From the NCBI GenBank assembly GCA_019912545.1, contig JAIOIK010000030.1:1-42007 (forward strand): a DNA stretch of 42,007 nucleotides. Direction: 5' to 3'. Shown one piece after another: positions 10,214 to 23,057 of this stretch; the stretch's first letter is position 1, and every line of letters starts with the position of its first letter. Source of the stretch: Ignavibacteria bacterium (GTDB taxonomy: Bacteria; Bacteroidota; Ignavibacteria; Tepidaquicellales; OLB5). The notes under the pieces are model-generated. The model saw only the letters and a list, made by a program, of their open reading frames with translations, did no database searches and was not told where the DNA came from. The translations under genes and the position numbers were made by a program.

Positions 10214-13200
10214 ATGTCAATTGGCAAGAACCAGAGAAAAGCTTTCAAATCCAAAAGCCCGAAATATACTTCACCAAAATCCCATTTACCACGAATCCCA
10301 ATAAAAGAAACGAAATTTCTAAGATCATTTTATGCAGAACCGCTTGTTGCATCTATCATTTCTGCTTCAACAGGAAAATATATTGATGTAAACATTCGCT
10401 TTGAGGAATTTTTTGGTTTAAGCAGAAAAGATGTCATTGGCAAATCACCACTTGAACTTGATATATGGGCAAAGAAAAGCCACCGTAAAAAAGCGGCTAA
10501 GGATTTCCTGCAGGAAGGATCATTTGGCAAGTTTTCTCTGAGAGTCATAGCGGCAGGCGGAAAGATAGCAGACGTTTTTGCAGTAAGCGAAGTTATTAAT
10601 TTTAAAGGCGAAGATTGTTACCTGGGGCGTTTATATGATATCACGGGGCAGATAGAAGCATCAAAGAAGCTAAAGGAAGGCGAACAGAAGTTCAGTAACC
10701 TTGTAGAGAACTCACTTGACGTGATTTACGAATTCGATATTAAGCATCATTGTTACAAGTATATTAGTCCGTCATCAAAAGAAATACTTGGCATAAAGCC
10801 AGAGGTATTCCTGAGGAAAAAGTCCGGTGTAATACTATCATTAATTCTCGGTGAAGACAGAAATGAAATAATTGAACATAATAAAATGATCTCAGCATCA
10901 AGAGGCCCGGGCAAGAAAAGCTTTTATATCGAGTACAGGATAAAGTACGGAAAGAAAGATCTAAAGTGGCTGGCGGATAACCGTACTGTAATTTATGACA
11001 ACAACGGCAGGCCGGAGAGTATGATAGGTAATATCACAGATGTTACCTACCGCAAGAATGCACAGGAAGAACTTCTGAAGAGCTATGAGCTGCAAAAAGG
11101 ATATTTAGGTCTTCTAACAACAATACAGGATGCATTGCCGGCATATGTTGCAATGCTTGATAAAACCGGTACAATTGTAACCGTTAATGAATCATGGAGC
11201 AGGTTTGATGCAGGCAGCTCACTTGTACATAAAAGTCACACGGCAGGCATAAATTATATTTCTGTTTGCGATAATGCCAGATGCATGTGTTCGAACGAAT
11301 CCCGCAAAATTGCAGTAGGTATAAAAAAAGTACTCAAAGGGGTATTGGAAGAATTCCAGACCGAGTACCCATGCCACTTTCCGGATAAGCAAAGATGGTA
11401 CCGTTTGCTTGTTTCACCAATTGGCAAAACCAAACCTACCGGTGCAGTTGTAATGCACATTGATATAACAGAGCAAAAACTTGCAGATCTATCTTTGGAA
11501 GATAGTGAAACACAGTACAGACTGTTATTCCACAACAATCCGCTTCCTATGTTCATTTATGATGTTGATACTATGATGATAGTTGCTGCAAATAATGCTG
11601 CAATTCGCCACTATGGTTATTCAAGAAGGGAGATCCTGAAGCTCAGCCTTCATGATATCAGGACGGCTGCAGACAGAGCAGGATTTACAGAACACTGGGA
11701 AAAAGAAACAGCCTCAAATCGCAAATGCAAATCGGCAAACGTTGGGATATGGAAACATTTGAAGAAAAATGGAGAGATCATTGACGTAGATATAACAAGA
11801 GCATGTGTAAATTTTGAAGGCAAAAAAGCAATATTGATCCTGGCAGAAGACGTAACGGAGAGATTAAAAAGCGAAAGATCATTTAAAAAGAAAAAATCAG
11901 ATATTGAGCTTCTGTATAAAGCAGGGAAAGAACTATCCGGCACACTGGATTTACATAAGATACTTGATAAGATATACAGGATTGTCAAGGAAAATTTACA
12001 GTGTGACTCGATGATAATTTCATCTTACAATAATAAGGAAAAAGAGATTAAGTGCCTTGCAGCCTGGCAGGAAGACGTTAAGCAAGATGTATCGAAGCTC
12101 CCGCCGCTCAACCTTGCGCCTAAAGGCCTGGGAATCCAAAGCGAGATAATCAGAACACGGAAAGCTAAGATTGTTAAAGATTATGAGAGATACACAAAGA
12201 ACTGTTTAACAAGGCTGGATTATAATAAGCACGGCGAAGAAGTACCTTTAGGTTCTAAAACCACAAAGGTGAATAATTCAGCTCTGCTGGTTCCTTTGAA
12301 ACTTGAAGGAAAAGTCATTGGTGTTGTACAGGTGTTGAGTTGTGAACATAATGCCTACACAACTGACGATCTTAAAATGCTTGAAGCGCTTTTATCACAG
12401 CTCAGCGCAGCAATGGCAAACGCAAAGCTTTACCAGCAGGCGCAATTGGAAATAAGCGAAAGGGAAAAAGCACAGTCGGAGCTCAAAAAGAAGAAAGACG
12501 AAGTCACAATTCTTTATAATGCAGAAAGAGAGCTTGCAAGTTCATTAGATACAAATGAAGTTTACGATAAAATATACAGGATCGTATCGGAATTGATCCC
12601 GTGTGAATCAATGGTCATCTCCTCTTTTGAGAAAACAAGCAGCAAAATAAATTGCCTTGCCGCCTGGATAAAAGATAAAAAACTTGATAATTCAAAATTT
12701 CCCGAATTGCTGCTTGATAAAACAGGGAAAGGATTTCAAAGCAGGGTTATAATAACCGGAAAATCATTGATCGTGGATAATTTTAGTGAATATGCCGCGA
12801 AAAACAAAAGTATAACCTATGTTTATAAAGATAATACGGTGAAGAAAGACCTGACGGAAGGAGATAAAATAAACAGATCAGCCCTGCTGGTTCCTATGAT
12901 GCTTAAAGGCAATGCCATAGGAGTAATACAGGTATTAAGTTACCGTAAGAATATTTATACTCAGGCTCATTTGCGGGTGCTGGAAGCTCTTTCGGCACAG
13001 ATCTCGGCTGCGACTGCAAATGCAAAGCTGTATTCACTGGCACAGACAGAGATCACAGAAAGGAAAAAAGCTGAAGAAGCATTTCGCAGGAAATCCAACG
13101 AGACATCAGTTTTGTATGAAGCGCAAAAAGAGCTGTCAAAAACACTTGACCTGAATTCGGTATATAACAATTCATACAGGATAATTTCAGGGCTTATGCC

Positions 13201-15295
13201 TTGTGATACGATGATGGTTTCTTCATATGATAAAAAAGATAATATGATCAGGGTTCTAAGTGTATGGACAGAGGGACATAAACCAGCCCTGAAGGAATTA
13301 CCGCCTATCCCGCTTGCGCCAAAAGGCTATGGCATACAGAGCAATGTTATACATACAGGCGAATCTCTTCTGATACTTGATTATAAAAGCTATTTCAAAA
13401 AATCAATAAATAAATACACCTTTACTGACGACAAGCTGGATAAGAATATAAAAAGTATATATTCTTCGGCGATGATAGTCCCAATGAAGGTTGAGGGCAG
13501 TGTAATTGGGACAATACAGGTTTTGAGCTTTAAGAAAGATGCTTACACTGAAAATGATCTCAGGATGCTTGAAACTTTGACAACTCACATTACAGCCGCT
13601 ACTGCAAATGCAGAGCTTTACCAGCAGGCACAAAGTGAAATACTTGAAAGGACAAAAGCAGAAAAGCAGCTGAGGGAAAGGACTGATGAGATAACACTGC
13701 TTTATGAATCATACCGGGATCTAACAAGTACACTTGATACAAAAGTTATATACGGCAAAGTTTATGATGTAATACGGAAAATAATGCCCTGCGATGCAAT
13801 GTCAATTATCAGCATGGAAAAGATCTCAGGTGACATGAAGTTTGTCTCGTTATGGCAGGATGATATTTGTCATGATACAACTAATATCCCCATGATGAAG
13901 TATAACCCAGAAAATAAAGGGATAATTACTGAACTGATAAAAACAGGAGAGCCGAGGATCTATAATAACTATTATGACGTGGTACAGAAGAACCCGAGTA
14001 TGTTCGCAGTTGATAATAAAGGCGAGATATCAAAGCAGTTGAGCGAAGAAGATGATGTGCCGATAACGAGATCGGCAATTTTAGTGCCGATGAAAATAGA
14101 GAACAGCATAATAGGCGTTATTACTGTTTACAGTTACGAAAAGGAAGCGTATAAGGAAGAAAACCTTAAGATACTTGAGGCGCTGACAACAGAGCTTTCT
14201 GCGGCTACACTCAATGCAATGCTCTACCAGCAGGCACAAAAAGAAATTGAAGAACGTATCAGGAATGAAGAAGAGTTAACAATTATCAAAAAGAATCTTG
14301 AAGAAGCACAAAGGATCGCACATATTGGAAGCTGGTTTTTTGATATAGAATCTAACATGATGACAAATTCAGATGAAGTATACACAATACTCGGTATAAA
14401 ACCCACACCCGAAGGATTTGAATTTGATCAGGCTATGAATTTTGTGCATGATGATGACAGGAAGCAAACGATGAAAAATATTAAGGATGCAATTAAAAAT
14501 AAAAAATCGTATGTTAACGAAGACAGGATAATAAGGCCTGACGGTGAAGTAAGATACGTGAAGCTAATGGGCGAGCCTGCCTTTGATGACAAGGGAAATT
14601 ATAAAGGTATTCACGGCACGATACAGGATATAACTGAGATAAAACTGATAAATGGTGAGCTTATGAGGTCACTTAGCGAAAAAGAAATGATGCTTAAAGA
14701 AATACATCACAGGGTTAAGAATAATCTTCAGGTTGTTTCCAGCCTGCTAAGGCTTCAATCTGATAAGATAAGCGACCGCACTGCAATTGATTATCTTAAG
14801 CAGAGCGAGCAGCGTGTTAAATCAATGGCGCTTATACACCAGCAGCTTTACCGTACTAAGGATCTTTCGAAAATAGATTTCAGGGAATACCTTAAAGAAC
14901 TATGTTCATACCTGATATTTGCCTACGGCGTAAACTCTCAGAAAATTTCACTTCAGATCGAGTTAGATGAAACATATTTTGGAATAGATACTGCCTTGCC
15001 ATGCGGCTTGATAGTTAACGAACTCCTGACGAATTCCATAAAGCATGCTTATCCGGGGAACAGAACAGGAAATATTGTAATTAAATTGTATAAAGATGAC
15101 TCGAATACTAATCACCTTACGGTTAAGGATGACGGCATTGGGGGTAAACTTGATTTCAAGAATGCTGAAACACTTGGATTAGAGCTGGTTAGCACATTAA
15201 CCGAACAGCTTGATGGTGAAATAACTTCATGCTGCAATGGAGGAACTGAAATAACCATCAGTTTCGCTGACCAGAAGAATAAAAGCACCAATTAA
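10214..15295 (+). CDS. Multi-sensor histidine kinase: 5 PAS, 4 tandem GAF, HisKA_2
   Basis: A 1693-residue cytoplasmic sensor kinase with no evident membrane segment. PAS-like domains lie at about 35-145, 158-286, 303-415 and 432-553. Four homologous GAF units follow at about 561-743, 759-946, 963-1143 and 1156-1341, each opening '(T)xLYxAxxELSxTLD...KIYRI', centred on '(I)PCDxM', and closing 'LSAATANAxLYQQAQxEI'. A fifth PAS (1363-1476) precedes the HisKA_2 block 'EIHHRVKNNLQ' (candidate phospho-acceptor H1499) and an HATPase with N-box 'IVNELLTNSIKHA' and 'DDGIGG'. The GAF repeats come from internal duplication. GAF and PAS ligands cannot be predicted. It has no receiver domain; the next gene, 16 bases on, supplies one. 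Confidence 0.93.
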   Translation: MSIGKNQRKAFKSKSPKYTSPKSHLPRIPIKETKFLRSFYAEPLVASIISASTGKYIDVNIRFEEFFGLSRKDVIGKSPLELDIWAKKSHRKKAAKDFLQEGSFGKFSLRVIAAGGKIADVFAVSEVINFKGEDCYLGRLYDITGQIEASKKLKEGEQKFSNLVENSLDVIYEFDIKHHCYKYISPSSKEILGIKPEVFLRKKSGVILSLILGEDRNEIIEHNKMISASRGPGKKSFYIEYRIKYGKKDLKWLADNRTVIYDNNGRPESMIGNITDVTYRKNAQEELLKSYELQKGYLGLLTTIQDALPAYVAMLDKTGTIVTVNESWSRFDAGSSLVHKSHTAGINYISVCDNARCMCSNESRKIAVGIKKVLKGVLEEFQTEYPCHFPDKQRWYRLLVSPIGKTKPTGAVVMHIDITEQKLADLSLEDSETQYRLLFHNNPLPMFIYDVDTMMIVAANNAAIRHYGYSRREILKLSLHDIRTAADRAGFTEHWEKETASNRKCKSANVGIWKHLKKNGEIIDVDITRACVNFEGKKAILILAEDVTERLKSERSFKKKKSDIELLYKAGKELSGTLDLHKILDKIYRIVKENLQCDSMIISSYNNKEKEIKCLAAWQEDVKQDVSKLPPLNLAPKGLGIQSEIIRTRKAKIVKDYERYTKNCLTRLDYNKHGEEVPLGSKTTKVNNSALLVPLKLEGKVIGVVQVLSCEHNAYTTDDLKMLEALLSQLSAAMANAKLYQQAQLEISEREKAQSELKKKKDEVTILYNAERELASSLDTNEVYDKIYRIVSELIPCESMVISSFEKTSSKINCLAAWIKDKKLDNSKFPELLLDKTGKGFQSRVIITGKSLIVDNFSEYAAKNKSITYVYKDNTVKKDLTEGDKINRSALLVPMMLKGNAIGVIQVLSYRKNIYTQAHLRVLEALSAQISAATANAKLYSLAQTEITERKKAEEAFRRKSNETSVLYEAQKELSKTLDLNSVYNNSYRIISGLMPCDTMMVSSYDKKDNMIRVLSVWTEGHKPALKELPPIPLAPKGYGIQSNVIHTGESLLILDYKSYFKKSINKYTFTDDKLDKNIKSIYSSAMIVPMKVEGSVIGTIQVLSFKKDAYTENDLRMLETLTTHITAATANAELYQQAQSEILERTKAEKQLRERTDEITLLYESYRDLTSTLDTKVIYGKVYDVIRKIMPCDAMSIISMEKISGDMKFVSLWQDDICHDTTNIPMMKYNPENKGIITELIKTGEPRIYNNYYDVVQKNPSMFAVDNKGEISKQLSEEDDVPITRSAILVPMKIENSIIGVITVYSYEKEAYKEENLKILEALTTELSAATLNAMLYQQAQKEIEERIRNEEELTIIKKNLEEAQRIAHIGSWFFDIESNMMTNSDEVYTILGIKPTPEGFEFDQAMNFVHDDDRKQTMKNIKDAIKNKKSYVNEDRIIRPDGEVRYVKLMGEPAFDDKGNYKGIHGTIQDITEIKLINGELMRSLSEKEMMLKEIHHRVKNNLQVVSSLLRLQSDKISDRTAIDYLKQSEQRVKSMALIHQQLYRTKDLSKIDFREYLKELCSYLIFAYGVNSQKISLQIELDETYFGIDTALPCGLIVNELLTNSIKHAYPGNRTGNIVIKLYKDDSNTNHLTVKDDGIGGKLDFKNAETLGLELVSTLTEQLDGEITSCCNGGTEITISFADQKNKSTN

Positions 15296-15311
15296 AATTA
15301 TTTTTTAAAGT

Positions 15312-16778
15312 ATGAATTTGATGTTTAAAAAATTGAAGATCCTGATTGTTGAAGATGAAAAGATCATAGCAAAGGATATAGAGTCAACGCTCAAGCGAAT
15401 CGGGCATGAATCCGCCGGCACAGTATCCAGAGGCGATGAGGCAATTAAGCAGGCAATGGAGCTTAAACCCGACCTTATTCTGATGGATATAACCCTGAAA
15501 GGTGAAGTTGACGGCATTGAAGCAGCAAAGATAATTAATGAGACCGAACATATTCCGATAGTATATATTACCGCGCACCAGGATGAAGACACTATAGAAA
15601 AAAGTAAAGCAACAAATCCTTATGGATATATTACTAAGCCGCTTGATGACCGGGATCTTAATACTGCGATCAATTCTGCAATATACAGGTTTGATGTAGA
15701 AAAACGGCTTAAAGAAGCAGAAGAGAGATATTTCAGGCTTAGCGAAAATGCAGTTGATATGATATATACCGAAGACGCTGCAACTTCTTCATATAAATAT
15801 GTAAACCGCTCGGCATATGAGCTTACCGGTTACAAGCCCTCGGAATTCTACGAATCACCCGGACTTATTGAAAGAATTGTTCATCCTGAGTGGAAAGAAC
15901 TCTACAATTTCTGCAGAAACCAGATCCTGACGGGAGAGCTGCCCGTGCCGTTTGAGTTTATGATTGTTCACAAATCAGGAAAAGAAAAATGGCTGAACCA
16001 GAGAAGTGTGGTAGTAAAAGACAAAAAACATAATTCAGTATTAATTGAAGCAATAGTTACAGATGTTACGGAAAGAAGAAATCATGAAAAACAGCTTGAG
16101 AGCACTACCGAAAAGCTAAGAGCACTTTCCAATTATCTTCAGAAAGTAAGGGAGGAGGAAAGACTTCATATATCAAGAGAAATACATGATGAGCTTGGAC
16201 AGGACCTGACCGTTTTGAAAATGGACCTATCTATGCTTGGGAAAAAAGCATTGAAGGAAGATTCTGTTTTAAGTATGAAAGATGTTGTTGCTGAAATGAA
16301 GAGAATAAATTCTTCAATTGACGAAATTGTTAACAAGGTAAGAAAGATCGCCACAGATCTCAGGCCGGATATTCTGGATAAACTTGGACTGGTTGAAGCA
16401 ATTGAATGGCACTCGGGGGAATTTGAAAAACGCACGGGCATTAAGTGCAGTTATGAACTTTGTGAACAGGATTTTGAACTTAACATTGAAAAAGCTATCA
16501 GCATGTTCAGAGTATTACAGGAAACGTTTACCAATATTGCGAGGCACGCTAACGCAGAAAGTGTTAAAGTAAACCTTGTTAACCAAAATGGATTCCTGAG
16601 CCTAACTGTTGAAGATAATGGCAAAGGAATTACAGAGGAAGAGATCGAGAAATCAACTTCTCTTGGTATCCTGGGAATGAGAGAAAGAATTACACTGCTT
16701 GGAGGTATGTGGCACATTAAAGGAAGTAAGGATAAGGGTACAAAAGTAACAATTAATGTACCTTTGGATGCAGTTTAG
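15312..16778 (+). CDS. REC-PAS-histidine kinase (HisKA_3), phosphorelay partner
   Basis: Residues 8-125 are a receiver domain with acidic pocket E14/D15, phospho-acceptor D59 ('LILMD'), T87 and K109 ('YITKP'). A PAS domain with a PAC tail spans about 135-255 ('DVTERR'). The kinase part has the HisKA_3 motif 'EIHDELGQDLT' with candidate H292, then the HATPase with 'ETFTNIARHANA', 'DNGKGI' and 'LGILGMRER'. HisKA_3 kinases normally phosphorylate NarL/LuxR-type regulators; none is adjacent. Its receiver probably takes phosphate from the upstream kinase, so the pair forms a relay in which one kinase tunes another. Confidence 0.93.
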   Translation: MNLMFKKLKILIVEDEKIIAKDIESTLKRIGHESAGTVSRGDEAIKQAMELKPDLILMDITLKGEVDGIEAAKIINETEHIPIVYITAHQDEDTIEKSKATNPYGYITKPLDDRDLNTAINSAIYRFDVEKRLKEAEERYFRLSENAVDMIYTEDAATSSYKYVNRSAYELTGYKPSEFYESPGLIERIVHPEWKELYNFCRNQILTGELPVPFEFMIVHKSGKEKWLNQRSVVVKDKKHNSVLIEAIVTDVTERRNHEKQLESTTEKLRALSNYLQKVREEERLHISREIHDELGQDLTVLKMDLSMLGKKALKEDSVLSMKDVVAEMKRINSSIDEIVNKVRKIATDLRPDILDKLGLVEAIEWHSGEFEKRTGIKCSYELCEQDFELNIEKAISMFRVLQETFTNIARHANAESVKVNLVNQNGFLSLTVEDNGKGITEEEIEKSTSLGILGMRERITLLGGMWHIKGSKDKGTKVTINVPLDAV

Positions 16779-17386: not shown

Positions 17387-20300
17387 ATGAAAATAGAAGA
17401 TTTAACGCACGAGCAGCGCGACAAACTATCAGAATTTGGCGTAAACACCTGGTTTGTTATGGAGTTATTGGAAAACTACCTAAACAATCCCGGCTCTGTT
17501 GGCGAAGACTGGCAGAATTTGTTTGGCAGTCTTAATATAATAACAAACGTAAAGCAGTCCTCAACCGCAGGCAGCCAGAGTGTAAATCCTTCGGGAAATA
17601 GAAGCATTGAAACAGGCGCTTACGTGAAATTTCAGGATAAGCCGAAGGTAAATCTTCCGCTTCCTAATCTGCTGAGCGGTGAGGAAGCAGTTCAGATAAA
17701 AGGTGCCGGCGAGCGGATCATAGAGAATATGACTGCAAGCCTTTCTATCCCTACTGCAACTTCGTTCCGCGCAATACCTGTAAAAGTTCTTGAAGAGAAC
17801 CGTATAACTATAAATACGCATCTAAAGAAAAGAAATGCCGGAAAAATTTCCTTCACACATATTATAGGCTGGGCAATTGTAAAAGCTTTGGATTCAATTC
17901 CGGCGCTTAACAATTCATTCACCATAATAGATGGCAATCCCCACATTGTAAAAAAGCCCGATGTTAACCTTGGGCTTGCTGTTGATCTGGAAAAGAAGGA
18001 CGGTACCAGGTCTTTAATTGTGCCGAACATCAAAAAAGCCAGCACGATGAACTTTAGACAGTTCTTCGAGGCATATAATGATATAATCAACCGGTCAAGA
18101 GCAGGCAAGATAGAGATTCCCGATTTCCAGGGGACGACAATTACACTTACAAATCCAGGTACCATAGGAACAGTTGCATCACAACCAAGGCTTATGACAG
18201 GGCAGGGCGCAATTATAGCTACCGGCGCACTCGACTATCCCGCAGAATACATGGCAGTAACAAAAGATATTATTACTTCTTTGGGTATCAGCAAAGTAAT
18301 GAACATTACCAGTACATATGATCACAGGATAATTCAGGGAGCAGAATCAGGCATGTTCCTTCAGAAAATGCATAAGCTTTTGATAGGCGAAGACGGGTTC
18401 TACGATGAGATTTTTAACGATCTTGCAATGCCGGTGAAGCCCGTACTTTGGAAAGTTGATTACAACCCCGAGGATTTCGGCGGGATTGATAACTTAGAAG
18501 AGATCGAAAAGCAGGCAAAAGCAATACAGTTCATTAATATGTACCGTGTGCGCGGGCATTTGCTGGCAAATCTTGACCCGCTGAAACCAACCCCTAAATA
18601 TCACCCGGAGCTTGATCCCTCAACATACGGCTTTACCGTTTGGGATTATGACAGGGAATTTATCACTGCAAGGCTTGCAGGCTTAAGAACGGCAACGCTT
18701 AGAGAGATATTAAATATACTTCAGAAGACATATGCTGAAAATATCGGGGTAGAGTATATGCATATACAGGACCCGAAACAGAAGTTCTGGCTGCAGGATA
18801 AGATGGAGCCGTTCAAAAATCAGCCGAGCTTTACAGATGCCGAAAAAAAGCATATTCTTTACAAACTTATACAGGCCGAAAATTTTGAGAAGTTTGTTGA
18901 TAAGAAGTACATCGGGCATAAGAGGTTTTCTCTTGAAGGCTCAGAAACAATTATTCCGCTGCTTGATTTTCTGCTTGGGCTTGCAGCTAAAGATAATGTT
19001 GATGAACTTGTGCTTGGCATGGCGCACAGGGGCAGGCTCAATATTCTTGCAAATATAATTGGCAAGAAAATGCAGGAGATATTTTCTGAATTCGAGGATA
19101 TCTTTGATGTTGATTCCGTTGAAGGCTCAGGTGATGTAAAATATCACTTAGGTGCAGCAGGAGTATATGAAACCATGTATGGTGATGATATAAATGTTTC
19201 TGTTGCTTCCAATCCAAGCCACTTAGAGTTTGTCAATCCCGTTGTTGAAGGAATTGTTCGCGCAAAGCAAACCATGATGAATGATATCACCAGGGATAAG
19301 TTTATTCCCGTATTAATACATGGTGATGCGGCAATTGCCGGGGAGGGTATTGTTGCTGAAACGCTTAATCTTTCACAATTAAGGGGCTACAGCACCGGCG
19401 GCACAATTCATATAATCATAAATAATCAAATAGGATTCACCACAAGCCCGGTAGATGCGCGCTCTACAGTATATGCATCGGATGTTGCAAAGATGATACA
19501 GGCGCCGATATTTCATGTGAACGGAGATGACCCGGAGGCAACTATGCTTGTTACTAAGCTGGCATATGAATACAGGATGAATTTTGATAAAGATGTTGTG
19601 ATAGATGTTTACAGCTACCGCAGACTTGGGCATAACGAGGCCGATGAGCCGGCATTTACTCAGCCGGTGTTATACAAGGCGATCCGCAATCATGATTCCG
19701 TTAAGTCCATTTATCAGAAGAAACTTCTTGAAGAAAAAGTAGTTACCTCAGAAGATATCAGGGCAATGGAAGAAGAGATCTACAATGTTATGGATAGCGG
19801 ATATACAAAAGCGCATGAACGGGAAGCGCAGTTCAGGGCAGACTCTCCCATAAGGCTTTCCAAAGAAGAAGTTAAGAAGCTGCGCTCGCACCAGTTTGAA
19901 AAAATTACTATGGAAGACTTGAACAAGGTTGTTGATGTTATAACAACATTGCCCGCGAACTTTCATCTTCACCCTAAACTGAAAAAGTTTATCGATTCAA
20001 GAAGAGAGTTTCTGACAGGGGACGTAAAAGTTGATTGGGCATTTGCCGAAGCCCTTGCATTCGGGACCCTGCTACTGGAAGGAATTCCGGTAAGATTGAG
20101 CGGGCAGGATAGCGCCAGGGGGACTTTTTCACAAAGGCATATTGTGCTTGCTGATATGGAAACAGAAGAAGAAATTATCCCGCATAACAACATAGCCCCC
20201 GGTCTTGCGAGAATTGAGCCTCTTGACAGCCTGCTATCTGAGGCGGCAGTGCTTGGATTTGAGTTTGGTTACAGTACTGCTGACCCCTTAACTCTTGACC

Positions 20301-21091
20301 TATGGGAAGCGCAGTTTGGTGACTTTGCAAATGCAGCACAGGTCATCATTGATAATTTTCTTACGGCATCGCAGGATAAATGGCAGCTGCCGAGTAACCT
20401 TGTGATGCTTTTACCGCATGGCCAGGAAGGCCAGGGGCCGGAGCACTCAAGTGCAAGGCTTGAAAGATTCTTAACGCTCTGCGCAGATGATAATATTACA
20501 GTCTGCAATCCTTCAACCCCGGCGCAGTATTATTACCTGCTGCGTACACAGGGAAAGTACACACGAAGAAGGCCTCTGGTTGTAATGACTCCAAAGAGCT
20601 TACTCAGATTGCCGGAGGCACGCTCCGATAAAAGCGAGTTTATTGACGGTACATACAGGCTTGTAATTGATGACGAAGAGATCAAAAACAAAAGTGAGGT
20701 TAAAAGAATTCTGCTTACAAGCGGCAAGTTTTATTATGACCTGGCGAAATACAGGAAAGAAAATAATATTCCCGGTACTGCAATAGTAAGAATAGAGAGA
20801 TATTATCCTTATCCTTCGGATGAAATAAAAGAGACACTGAGGAAATATGAGAATGCCAAAGAAGTGATCTGGGCGCAGGAAGAGCCGCATAATATGGGTG
20901 CGCTGATATTTATGTCTTACAGGCTGAAGCGCGACCTAAGAGATATGGGAAGCAAAATGACTTTATACGGAGTGAGCAGGGATGAAAGCCCGGCTCCAGC
21001 ACCGGGCTCTAACTCAATATTTAACCAAACACAGAAACGTTTGCTTAAAGAGGCCTTTGCTGAAATAGGTGAAGTTATTGATATTAAATAA
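17387..21091 (+). CDS. kgd: Fused 2-oxoglutarate dehydrogenase E1 / succinyltransferase E2-domain protein (Kgd type)
   Basis: A 1234-residue TCA-cycle enzyme. Residues 1-45 resemble the OdhA/SucA N-terminal helix ('FVMELLENYLNNPGSVGEDWQ'). About 95-335 is an E2 acyltransferase catalytic domain without a lipoyl domain, with the 'YDHRIIQGA' motif (H313). About 365-1234 is the thiamine-diphosphate E1: 'YRVRGHLLANLDPL', 'AHRGRLNILANIIGK', 'HGDAAIAGEG' (H645-D647) and 'LGHNEADEP' (H749). This E2-E1 fusion is the architecture of mycobacterial Kgd and corynebacterial OdhA, which may act as decarboxylase, carboligase or, with a lipoylated partner, as dehydrogenase. No separate E2 or E3 gene lies nearby. 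It is a single-gene unit closed by a strong terminator. Confidence 0.95.
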   Translation: MKIEDLTHEQRDKLSEFGVNTWFVMELLENYLNNPGSVGEDWQNLFGSLNIITNVKQSSTAGSQSVNPSGNRSIETGAYVKFQDKPKVNLPLPNLLSGEEAVQIKGAGERIIENMTASLSIPTATSFRAIPVKVLEENRITINTHLKKRNAGKISFTHIIGWAIVKALDSIPALNNSFTIIDGNPHIVKKPDVNLGLAVDLEKKDGTRSLIVPNIKKASTMNFRQFFEAYNDIINRSRAGKIEIPDFQGTTITLTNPGTIGTVASQPRLMTGQGAIIATGALDYPAEYMAVTKDIITSLGISKVMNITSTYDHRIIQGAESGMFLQKMHKLLIGEDGFYDEIFNDLAMPVKPVLWKVDYNPEDFGGIDNLEEIEKQAKAIQFINMYRVRGHLLANLDPLKPTPKYHPELDPSTYGFTVWDYDREFITARLAGLRTATLREILNILQKTYAENIGVEYMHIQDPKQKFWLQDKMEPFKNQPSFTDAEKKHILYKLIQAENFEKFVDKKYIGHKRFSLEGSETIIPLLDFLLGLAAKDNVDELVLGMAHRGRLNILANIIGKKMQEIFSEFEDIFDVDSVEGSGDVKYHLGAAGVYETMYGDDINVSVASNPSHLEFVNPVVEGIVRAKQTMMNDITRDKFIPVLIHGDAAIAGEGIVAETLNLSQLRGYSTGGTIHIIINNQIGFTTSPVDARSTVYASDVAKMIQAPIFHVNGDDPEATMLVTKLAYEYRMNFDKDVVIDVYSYRRLGHNEADEPAFTQPVLYKAIRNHDSVKSIYQKKLLEEKVVTSEDIRAMEEEIYNVMDSGYTKAHEREAQFRADSPIRLSKEEVKKLRSHQFEKITMEDLNKVVDVITTLPANFHLHPKLKKFIDSRREFLTGDVKVDWAFAEALAFGTLLLEGIPVRLSGQDSARGTFSQRHIVLADMETEEEIIPHNNIAPGLARIEPLDSLLSEAAVLGFEFGYSTADPLTLDLWEAQFGDFANAAQVIIDNFLTASQDKWQLPSNLVMLLPHGQEGQGPEHSSARLERFLTLCADDNITVCNPSTPAQYYYLLRTQGKYTRRRPLVVMTPKSLLRLPEARSDKSEFIDGTYRLVIDDEEIKNKSEVKRILLTSGKFYYDLAKYRKENNIPGTAIVRIERYYPYPSDEIKETLRKYENAKEVIWAQEEPHNMGALIFMSYRLKRDLRDMGSKMTLYGVSRDESPAPAPGSNSIFNQTQKRLLKEAFAEIGEVIDIK

Positions 21092-21124: not shown

Positions 21125-21153
21125 AAGGAGAATTTGATTCTCCTTATTTTTTT
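21125..21153 (+). terminator. Rho-independent terminator after kgd
   Basis: AAGGAGAAT and ATTCTCCTT are perfect 9-bp arms around TTG, followed by ATTTTTTT. Confidence 0.9.
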
Positions 21154-21392
21154 GACTTCAACACTTTGCAAGAGGAGAATTTCTTTTCTTCGCAGCCTGG
21201 TTCGGAAAATTATCAATAAATTACATGATGAATATCGCAGCGCTCTAGCAGTTTGGAGTAATCAGTTTGTTTATGCCCGATAAATTTCTCATAACCTGTT
21301 TCGTTATTTACATACGTTAATATGATTGCTATTTTAGTATTGATTTTTGAACTTTACTTTACAAGATTTAAGAGAAGGAGTTTACTAATATT

Positions 21393-21497
21393 ATGAAAAC
21401 CGATATATCATCCTTTCTGCACAGAAGTAATTTGTTCATTGCCGGAACAATAACACTTTTTTTTGTAATTATTATTCTGGGCCTGTTATTGGGTTAG
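21393..21497 (+). CDS. Single-helix membrane micro-protein, 34 residues (copy 1)
   Basis: Starts MKTDISSFLHRSNLF and then forms one hydrophobic helix (about residues 15-33) ending '...VIIILGLLLG'. AGAAGGAG lies 12 bases before the ATG. A hairpin follows at 21530. The copy at 21704 has the same plan: a polar N-terminus, 'SNL(F/Y)I', one transmembrane helix, and a terminal glycine. Conservation of that plan between two copies, each with its own translation signal, supports a real gene. The function is unknown; small subunits of membrane complexes (such as oxidases or transporters) or membrane-acting regulators are possible. Confidence 0.6.
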   Translation: MKTDISSFLHRSNLFIAGTITLFFVIIILGLLLG

Positions 21498-21529
21498 GGA
21501 TGTGATTACATGTATCCGGCAAAAAAGGG

Positions 21530-21560
21530 ATCTGCTGCTCTAAAGGGCGGCAGATTTCTT
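21530..21560 (+). terminator. Probable terminator after micro-protein copy 1
   Basis: ATCTGCTGC (21530-21538) pairs with GCGGCAGAT (21547-21555) with one G-T pair, followed by TTCTTGTTT. The T-run is interrupted. Confidence 0.55.
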
Positions 21561-21703
21561 GTTTATCGAGCCCATTGCAGCTAAAACAATTAAATTCAAT
21601 TATAACGTGTTGCCGTGATTGCCGCACCGGTATCTAAGGGCTATATTGATAAGGAAAGAAACAATAAAACAATTTAAAACTAACTTATAATAAGGAGCCA
21701 AAA

Positions 21704-21811
21704 ATGGAACAGCAGCAAATGAAGGAAGTTAATAAAAGCAGCAATTTATATATCGGCACAACTCTTGCAATTTTGTTTGTTATTATGATAGTTGGCTTTG
21801 TATTCGGTTGA
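21704..21811 (+). CDS. Single-helix membrane micro-protein, 35 residues (copy 2)
   Basis: Starts MEQQQMKEVNKSSNLYIG and continues as one hydrophobic helix (about residues 16-34) ending '...MIVGFVFG'. TAAGGAG lies 7 bases before the ATG, a strong ribosome binding site, and a terminator follows at 21845. Aligned with copy 1, the segment from SNL to the terminal G is the same length and keeps its hydrophobic pattern, with T, F, VI, G and the last G in register. The N-termini differ in length and sequence. No function can be assigned from the sequence. Confidence 0.65.
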   Translation: MEQQQMKEVNKSSNLYIGTTLAILFVIMIVGFVFG

Positions 21812-21844
21812 ACAATTGAGTAAAATATATTTTTCTTCCTATAG

Positions 21845-21876
21845 GAGCGTTGCATAACTGCAGGGCTCTTTTTTTA
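21845..21876 (+). terminator. Terminator after micro-protein copy 2
   Basis: GAGC (21845-21848) and GCTC (21865-21868) close a hairpin with an inner TGC/GCA stem, followed by a seven-T run. Confidence 0.7.
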
Positions 21877-22239: not shown

Positions 22240-23057
22240 ATGAAAAAATTATTCATCTTATCCGCATTATTTATTTTGTCCTCATCTATCCACTATACTC
22301 AATGGCAGCCGGATGTTCAGCTTACAAATAATTCCGGGGCTTCCCTTACATCAGATAATAATGGCTGGTGTGTGGCAGCAGATGGAAATCTCGTTCATGT
22401 TGTGTGGTATGACGACCGGGACGGGAACACGGAGATATATTATAAGCGCTCAATAAACGGAGGGGCAGCTGGGAGGCGAATACGAGATTAACAAATAACA
22501 ATTTCCCGTCAGAATATCCTTCAGTGGCAGCATCCGGTTCATTTGTACATATTGTGTGGGCCAGTGTAGGCTCGCTGTATTATATATGTTCAGAAGATGG
22601 GGGTGCAAGCTGGGGAGCGGCATCCCAGATAACGTATGTTAACCAGCATCCATCCATTGCGGTATCAGGAACAGATCTGCATGTTGTATGGACTTTTTCT
22701 ACGGGTAACTTTGAGATATTTTATAAACGAAATCCCACAGGTAATATTGGCATTACAACTATCAGCTCAGAGATTCCCGCATCATTTTCATTGTATCAGA
22801 ATTATCCAAATCCGTTTAATCCAAGTACAAAGATCAGGTTTGATGTACCCCCGGAAAGGAACGGTCGCGACCGTTCCCTACAAATTATTATATACGACAT
22901 GCTTGGAAGAGAGATTGCAGTACTTGTGAATGAAAATCTAAACCCCGGAACTTATGAGGTTGATTGGGATGCGGCAGATTATCCAAGCGGGGTGTATTTA
23001 TGTAGACTGGAAACAGACAAGTTTAATGACACAAGGAAATTAATACTTTTGAAATAG
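22240..23057 (+). pseudogene. Frameshifted BNR/sialidase-like secreted protein with T9SS sorting domain
   Basis: The first frame (22240-22491) has a signal peptide (residues 1-18) and a beta-propeller style repeat 'VHVVWYDDRDGNTEIYYKRS'. The matching rest, 'SWEANTRLTNNNFPSEYP' then 'VHIVWASVGSLYYI', continues in another frame to 23057. The shift is at 22466-22467: restoring one A there turns GCAGCTGG into GCAAGCTGG and gives 'NGGASW', which matches the later repeat 'DGGASW'. So one base is missing. The C-terminus is a full sorting domain ('NYPNPFNPSTK...TRKLILLK') with a palindrome in its loop at 22858. The gene is either disrupted or carries an assembly error. It opens the surface-protein cluster. 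Confidence 0.8.
22858..22877. repeat. In-frame 20-bp palindrome inside a sorting-domain gene
   Basis: GGAACGGTCGCGACCGTTCC is a perfect 20-bp palindrome. It is read as 'RNGRDRS' between the strands 'RFDVP' and 'IIYDMLGRE' of the sorting domain. An identical copy occupies the same codons of the gene at 23118. Confidence 0.85.

Follow-up and report, generated by a model that had tools for sequence, protein, structure and literature searches.

Two tandem micro-protein genes of one bacterial family encode paralogous single-helix peptides with a predicted interaction face

Results

Two short genes between a dehydrogenase gene and a surface cluster

Two neighbouring frames of about 35 codons, here named A and B, are conserved genes that share a protein plan, a fixed place in the genome and a distribution restricted to one bacterial family. 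We found them in a 42,007-nucleotide stretch (the window), which is part of the 3.66-Mb genome of an Ignavibacteria bacterium. Each frame encodes a single hydrophobic helix with glycine as its final residue, and we put at about even the chance that the products are tail-anchored inner-membrane micro-proteins docking sideways as accessory or regulatory subunits. The genes, their ribosome sites and their upstream neighbour are as follows.

17387..21091, + strand: fused E2-E1 2-oxoglutarate dehydrogenase gene (NCBIfam NF008907, 1656 bits against a cut-off of 878; same neighbour in relatives)
21375..21380, + strand: ribosome site of A, AAGGAG, 12 nt 5' of the ATG, read from the sequence
21393..21497, + strand: micro-protein gene A, 34 aa, MKTDISSFLHRSNLFIAGTITLFFVIIILGLLLG (frame kept in 13 of the 15 family genomes)
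21692..21697, + strand: ribosome site of B, AAGGAG, 6 nt 5' of the ATG, read from the sequence
21704..21811, + strand: micro-protein gene B, 35 aa, MEQQQMKEVNKSSNLYIGTTLAILFVIMIVGFVFG (frame kept in all 15 family genomes)

A gap of 206 nt separates A from B. The dehydrogenase gene lies 5' of the pair and a string of type IX secretion sorting-tail proteins (TIGR04183) 3' of it, which agrees with an earlier note, made from the letters of the window, that had placed the frames between a 2-oxoglutarate dehydrogenase gene and a surface cluster. That note had also credited each frame with a good ribosome site; the site of B is ideally spaced, whereas that of A is, in this genome, twice as far from its start codon. 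In several relatives B starts nine codons farther upstream, giving a protein of 44 aa. Elsewhere in the window, the frames at 22240-22491 and 22524-23057 (together 22240-23057) read like one secreted type IX sorting-tail protein split by a frameshift. Positions 10214-16778 encode a very large histidine kinase of 1693 aa with multiple PAS/GAF sensors and, after it, a response-regulator/PAS/kinase hybrid, and relatives of these two genes lie 5' of the dehydrogenase gene in most genomes of the genus.

Conservation within the family

When 59 relatives were searched, B turned up in all other genomes of the genus and in two more genera of the same family, nearly always with A alongside, and a profile search of the 44 genomes of the order gave the same distribution. 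In loci that could be oriented the gene order is dehydrogenase, A, B, and the pair follows the fused dehydrogenase gene in every locus with a visible flank, while genes farther downstream vary. Two genomes, G004 and G014, have B only. In G003 the frame of A is disrupted by one additional adenine within an adenine run, possibly a sequencing error. The contig of G006 begins just 5' of A. A third, B-like copy lies between A and B in G007 (locus L030, 7815-7940; 42 aa, with a differing N-terminal tail). The earlier note had named frame loss in close relatives as the observation that would count against its reading; across the genus the frames are kept, with the absence of A from G004 and the insertion in G003 as the exceptions.

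Nei-Gojobori counts over the last 25 codons, pooled across pairs, gave dN/dS of ~0.17 for A and ~0.065 for B, values that are sums over related pairs and thus describe a trend without formal error, with the synonymous sites of B near saturation. Synonymous changes predominate in both genes, as the earlier note had proposed to check, and differences at codon positions 1, 2 and 3 numbered 328, 44 and 684 in A and 436, 184 and 1237 in B. Because the frames recur at the same place across the family and change mainly at synonymous sites, they stand far beyond chance. By this comparison A and B are real genes under strong purifying selection, and both frames are borne out at the positions first assigned to them.

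With a combined profile, we found no credible relative outside the family of the window, either in the class (391 genomes) or in the phylum (395 genomes). The exceptions were a single contig of G043 and two weak matches (E = 4e-4 and 3e-4 in ~790 genomes). We took the two weak matches as chance; the one inspected, in G533, sits inside a larger membrane-protein frame. Genome G043 is assigned to the sister family f2 and carries a copy of B on the 3.9-kb contig C66 (locus L032). As its dehydrogenase gene is located on a different contig, we judge the B-bearing contig to be probably misbinned. At the 15 f2 loci scanned (one with a short flank), the dehydrogenase gene is not followed by any small hydrophobic frame that has a ribosome site.

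The strict adjacency wherever a flank is visible, set against the variable genes downstream, could mean that A and B are accessory proteins of the adjoining dehydrogenase, for example a membrane tether. We regard this as most improbable: the dehydrogenase gene has its own terminator (listed below), and f2 has the enzyme without such frames after it. Genes 5' of the dehydrogenase gene are conserved too, so that the adjacency may reflect shared descent.

Database and literature searches

Pfam returned nothing near a cut-off in the 29 rows scanned, and the best NCBIfam match reached 14.3 bits against a cut-off of 80. No significant match came from PADLOC, Rfam or PDB sequences, no relative of A or B was found on viral contigs, and we found nothing on these peptides in the literature. 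The phage family PHROG_9875 weakly matched 7 of 24 members of the A/B family (best E = 4e-4, where shuffles of A reached only E = 0.03); as a family with no assigned function, and with no viral relatives of A or B, it is a weak lead. For the databases searched, the A/B family is thus a new one. Small single-helix membrane proteins are already a known kind, and absence from these databases together with confinement to one bacterial family makes A and B new within that kind.

Each gene has its own predicted promoter and terminator

Alignment of relatives, promoter scanning and folding placed the following elements around the two frames.

21125..21153, + strand: intrinsic terminator of the dehydrogenase gene, 9-pair stem and T-run
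21292..21306, + strand: element TAACC-N5-CGTTA abutting the -35 box of A, from the alignment of relatives; elsewhere in the genomes chance-level matches only
21307..21335, + strand: predicted promoter of A, TTTACA-17-TATTTT, from the scan; place kept in relatives
21512..21524, + strand: conserved 3' UTR element GTATCCGGCAAAA after A, exact in 11 of 13 genus genomes
21525..21560, + strand: terminator hairpin of A (fold z = -5.3, compensatory changes)
21601..21621, + strand: conserved element TAAC-N8-GTGATTG, sharing bases with the -35 box of B and present upstream of B in 12 of the 13 genus genomes, with scattered matches at other places
21619..21647, + strand: predicted promoter of B, TTGCCG-17-TATATT, from the scan; layout shared by 13 of the 15 family genomes
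21844..21876, + strand: terminator hairpin and T-run of B (fold z = -3.7, compensatory changes in 6 of 10 pairs)

Taken on its own, the promoter scan did no better than shuffles (5 found against 4.7 expected). We nevertheless accept both promoters since they hold position across relatives, the call for A drawing on the alignment of relatives together with the scan; both are predicted, conserved and sigma-70-like. In the terminator stem of A, 98.4% of cells were paired and both sides had changed in 4 of 14 pairs; in that of B, 98.3% were paired and both sides had changed in 6 of 10, with slid controls far lower for each. The separate signals that the earlier note had read into the two frames are therefore recognisable, the hairpins acting like intrinsic terminators, and A and B are predicted to be separate transcription units, each with its own promoter and terminator. 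Between the dehydrogenase terminator and the promoter of A, relatives also conserve a palindromic element, ATCA(T)-N-ATGAT (~21225-21245), perhaps the site of a regulator.

A genus-wide search for the elements upstream of the two promoters gave, beyond A and B, scattered matches near control level. Both elements thus appear essentially private to the locus, and no regulon emerged that would point to a function.

The 13-nt element GTATCCGGCAAAA is conserved beyond what a terminator needs. This element and the conserved stems are what might be expected if the transcripts worked mainly as RNA regulators, of the dual-function or 3' UTR type, and the peptides were of secondary importance. Yet coding constraint is strong, the stems are accounted for as terminators and Rfam gave no match, and we think such a role very unlikely.

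Short transcripts with terminators also recall another kind of locus. Type I toxin peptides (the Hok, Ldr and Ibs kinds) are short and hydrophobic, occur in tandem copies and are made from short transcripts. A and B, as short hydrophobic peptides in tandem copies (three in G007) with short predicted transcripts, resemble them and might each be under the control of an antisense RNA. Unlike those toxins, however, A and B are universal in their family, syntenic at one fixed place and strongly conserved. No outstanding promoter-like site was seen on the minus strand; those that recur sit largely within the conserved coding sequence, a region with recurrent plus-strand matches too. With no PADLOC or Rfam match either, we consider a type I toxin unlikely.

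A shared protein plan and a conserved helix face in B

A and B align without gaps from 'SN' through the last glycine and, judged by this alignment, are tandem paralogues related by duplication. Their common plan is S-N-x-[FY]-I-x17-G-stop. Much of the plan proposed in the earlier note, namely SN, the aromatic residue, the isoleucine and the terminal glycine, withstood comparison; the leucine did not, as the position after SN varies freely (L/I/M/V/T/S/N/K), and the spacing from isoleucine to glycine is 17 rather than 18-20. Among 24 aligned sequences, residues N14, I17 and G35 of B are invariant and K11, S13, I27 and G31 nearly so.

The helix is preceded by a polar N-terminal tail that varies in length and has K/R adjoining the helix, and from this, by the positive-inside rule, we infer an N-in/C-out topology. 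AlphaFold2 predicted one helix, residues 3-34, with confidence across the membrane part. Small membrane proteins are recognised by a conserved short frame (at most ~50 aa) with one helix; here we found purifying selection, a predicted helix and hydrophobicity.

Conserved positions of B fall on one face of the helix (p = 0.0028; A and B together, p = 0.0009) in a permutation that runs over positions, the rows being related sequences. The face comprises I17, T20, L/M24, I27, G31, F34 and G35, and ends in G-x-x-x-G. For A alone the face was not significant (p = 0.62).

Discussion

A docking model

In the model that we give about an even chance, the K/R/N-rich N-terminus would stay in the cytoplasm and a helix of ~20 residues would end level with the outer side of the membrane at the C-terminal G-x-x-x-G. 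The conserved face listed above for B would then dock sideways on an integral membrane complex or transporter, or alternatively on the protein itself or its paralogue, and A and B would act as small accessory or regulatory subunits. In this scheme B may be the core protein, and A a duplicate that was kept and bears a 'FIAG' signature of its own. Our main reason for preferring docking to a general effect on the bilayer is the one-sided conservation of B together with its glycines, and the confinement of the pair to one family makes a universal complex a less likely partner. Against docking stand the lack of a significant face signal in A alone and the fact that no partner was identified. Between the two roles that the earlier note had left open, a subunit of a membrane complex and a membrane-active peptide, the one-sided helix of B thus favours a subunit or regulator contact over a generic membrane-active peptide, with no partner found to settle it. 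A bolder version seems to us rather unlikely: A and B would form an obligatory hetero-oligomer serving an important membrane complex as a new subunit or switch specific to this family, and the A transcript would also carry a conserved regulatory 3' UTR.

CydX, KdpF and AcrZ are small accessory subunits or regulators of membrane complexes; each binds sideways to a large membrane protein and has a known partner, with which it is encoded or to which it is linked. A and B resemble them in size and in having a single helix; in contrast, they lack a Pfam or NCBIfam match, and their partner is hypothetical.

The main competing explanation is that A and B are stress micro-proteins which, when induced, act on the whole bilayer (its fluidity, potential or lipid make-up) with no fixed protein partner. 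Escherichia coli YohP, of 27 aa, reduces membrane potential and fluidity (PMC12719787). Like A and B it is very short, has a single hydrophobic helix and is encoded by a stand-alone gene, its membrane function being a reported one (PMC12719787). A and B fall into the same size class, and their promoter elements, private and conserved, might point to regulated expression. They differ from YohP in their invariant S-N, I and G-x-x-x-G and in being two tandem paralogues. A bulk effect should not call for position-specific invariance on one face of B, nor for near-invariant G, N and I residues, and we consider this explanation possible but doubtful.

Significance

The comparative evidence raises two frames of ~35 codons, which fall under the limits of most gene callers, to well-supported genes of an uncultured lineage. 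The pair makes a small, clear target: its position is fixed, and its promoters and interaction face, as predicted, are defined. Should a partner be found, A and B would count as subunits or regulators specific to the family and overlooked by annotation.
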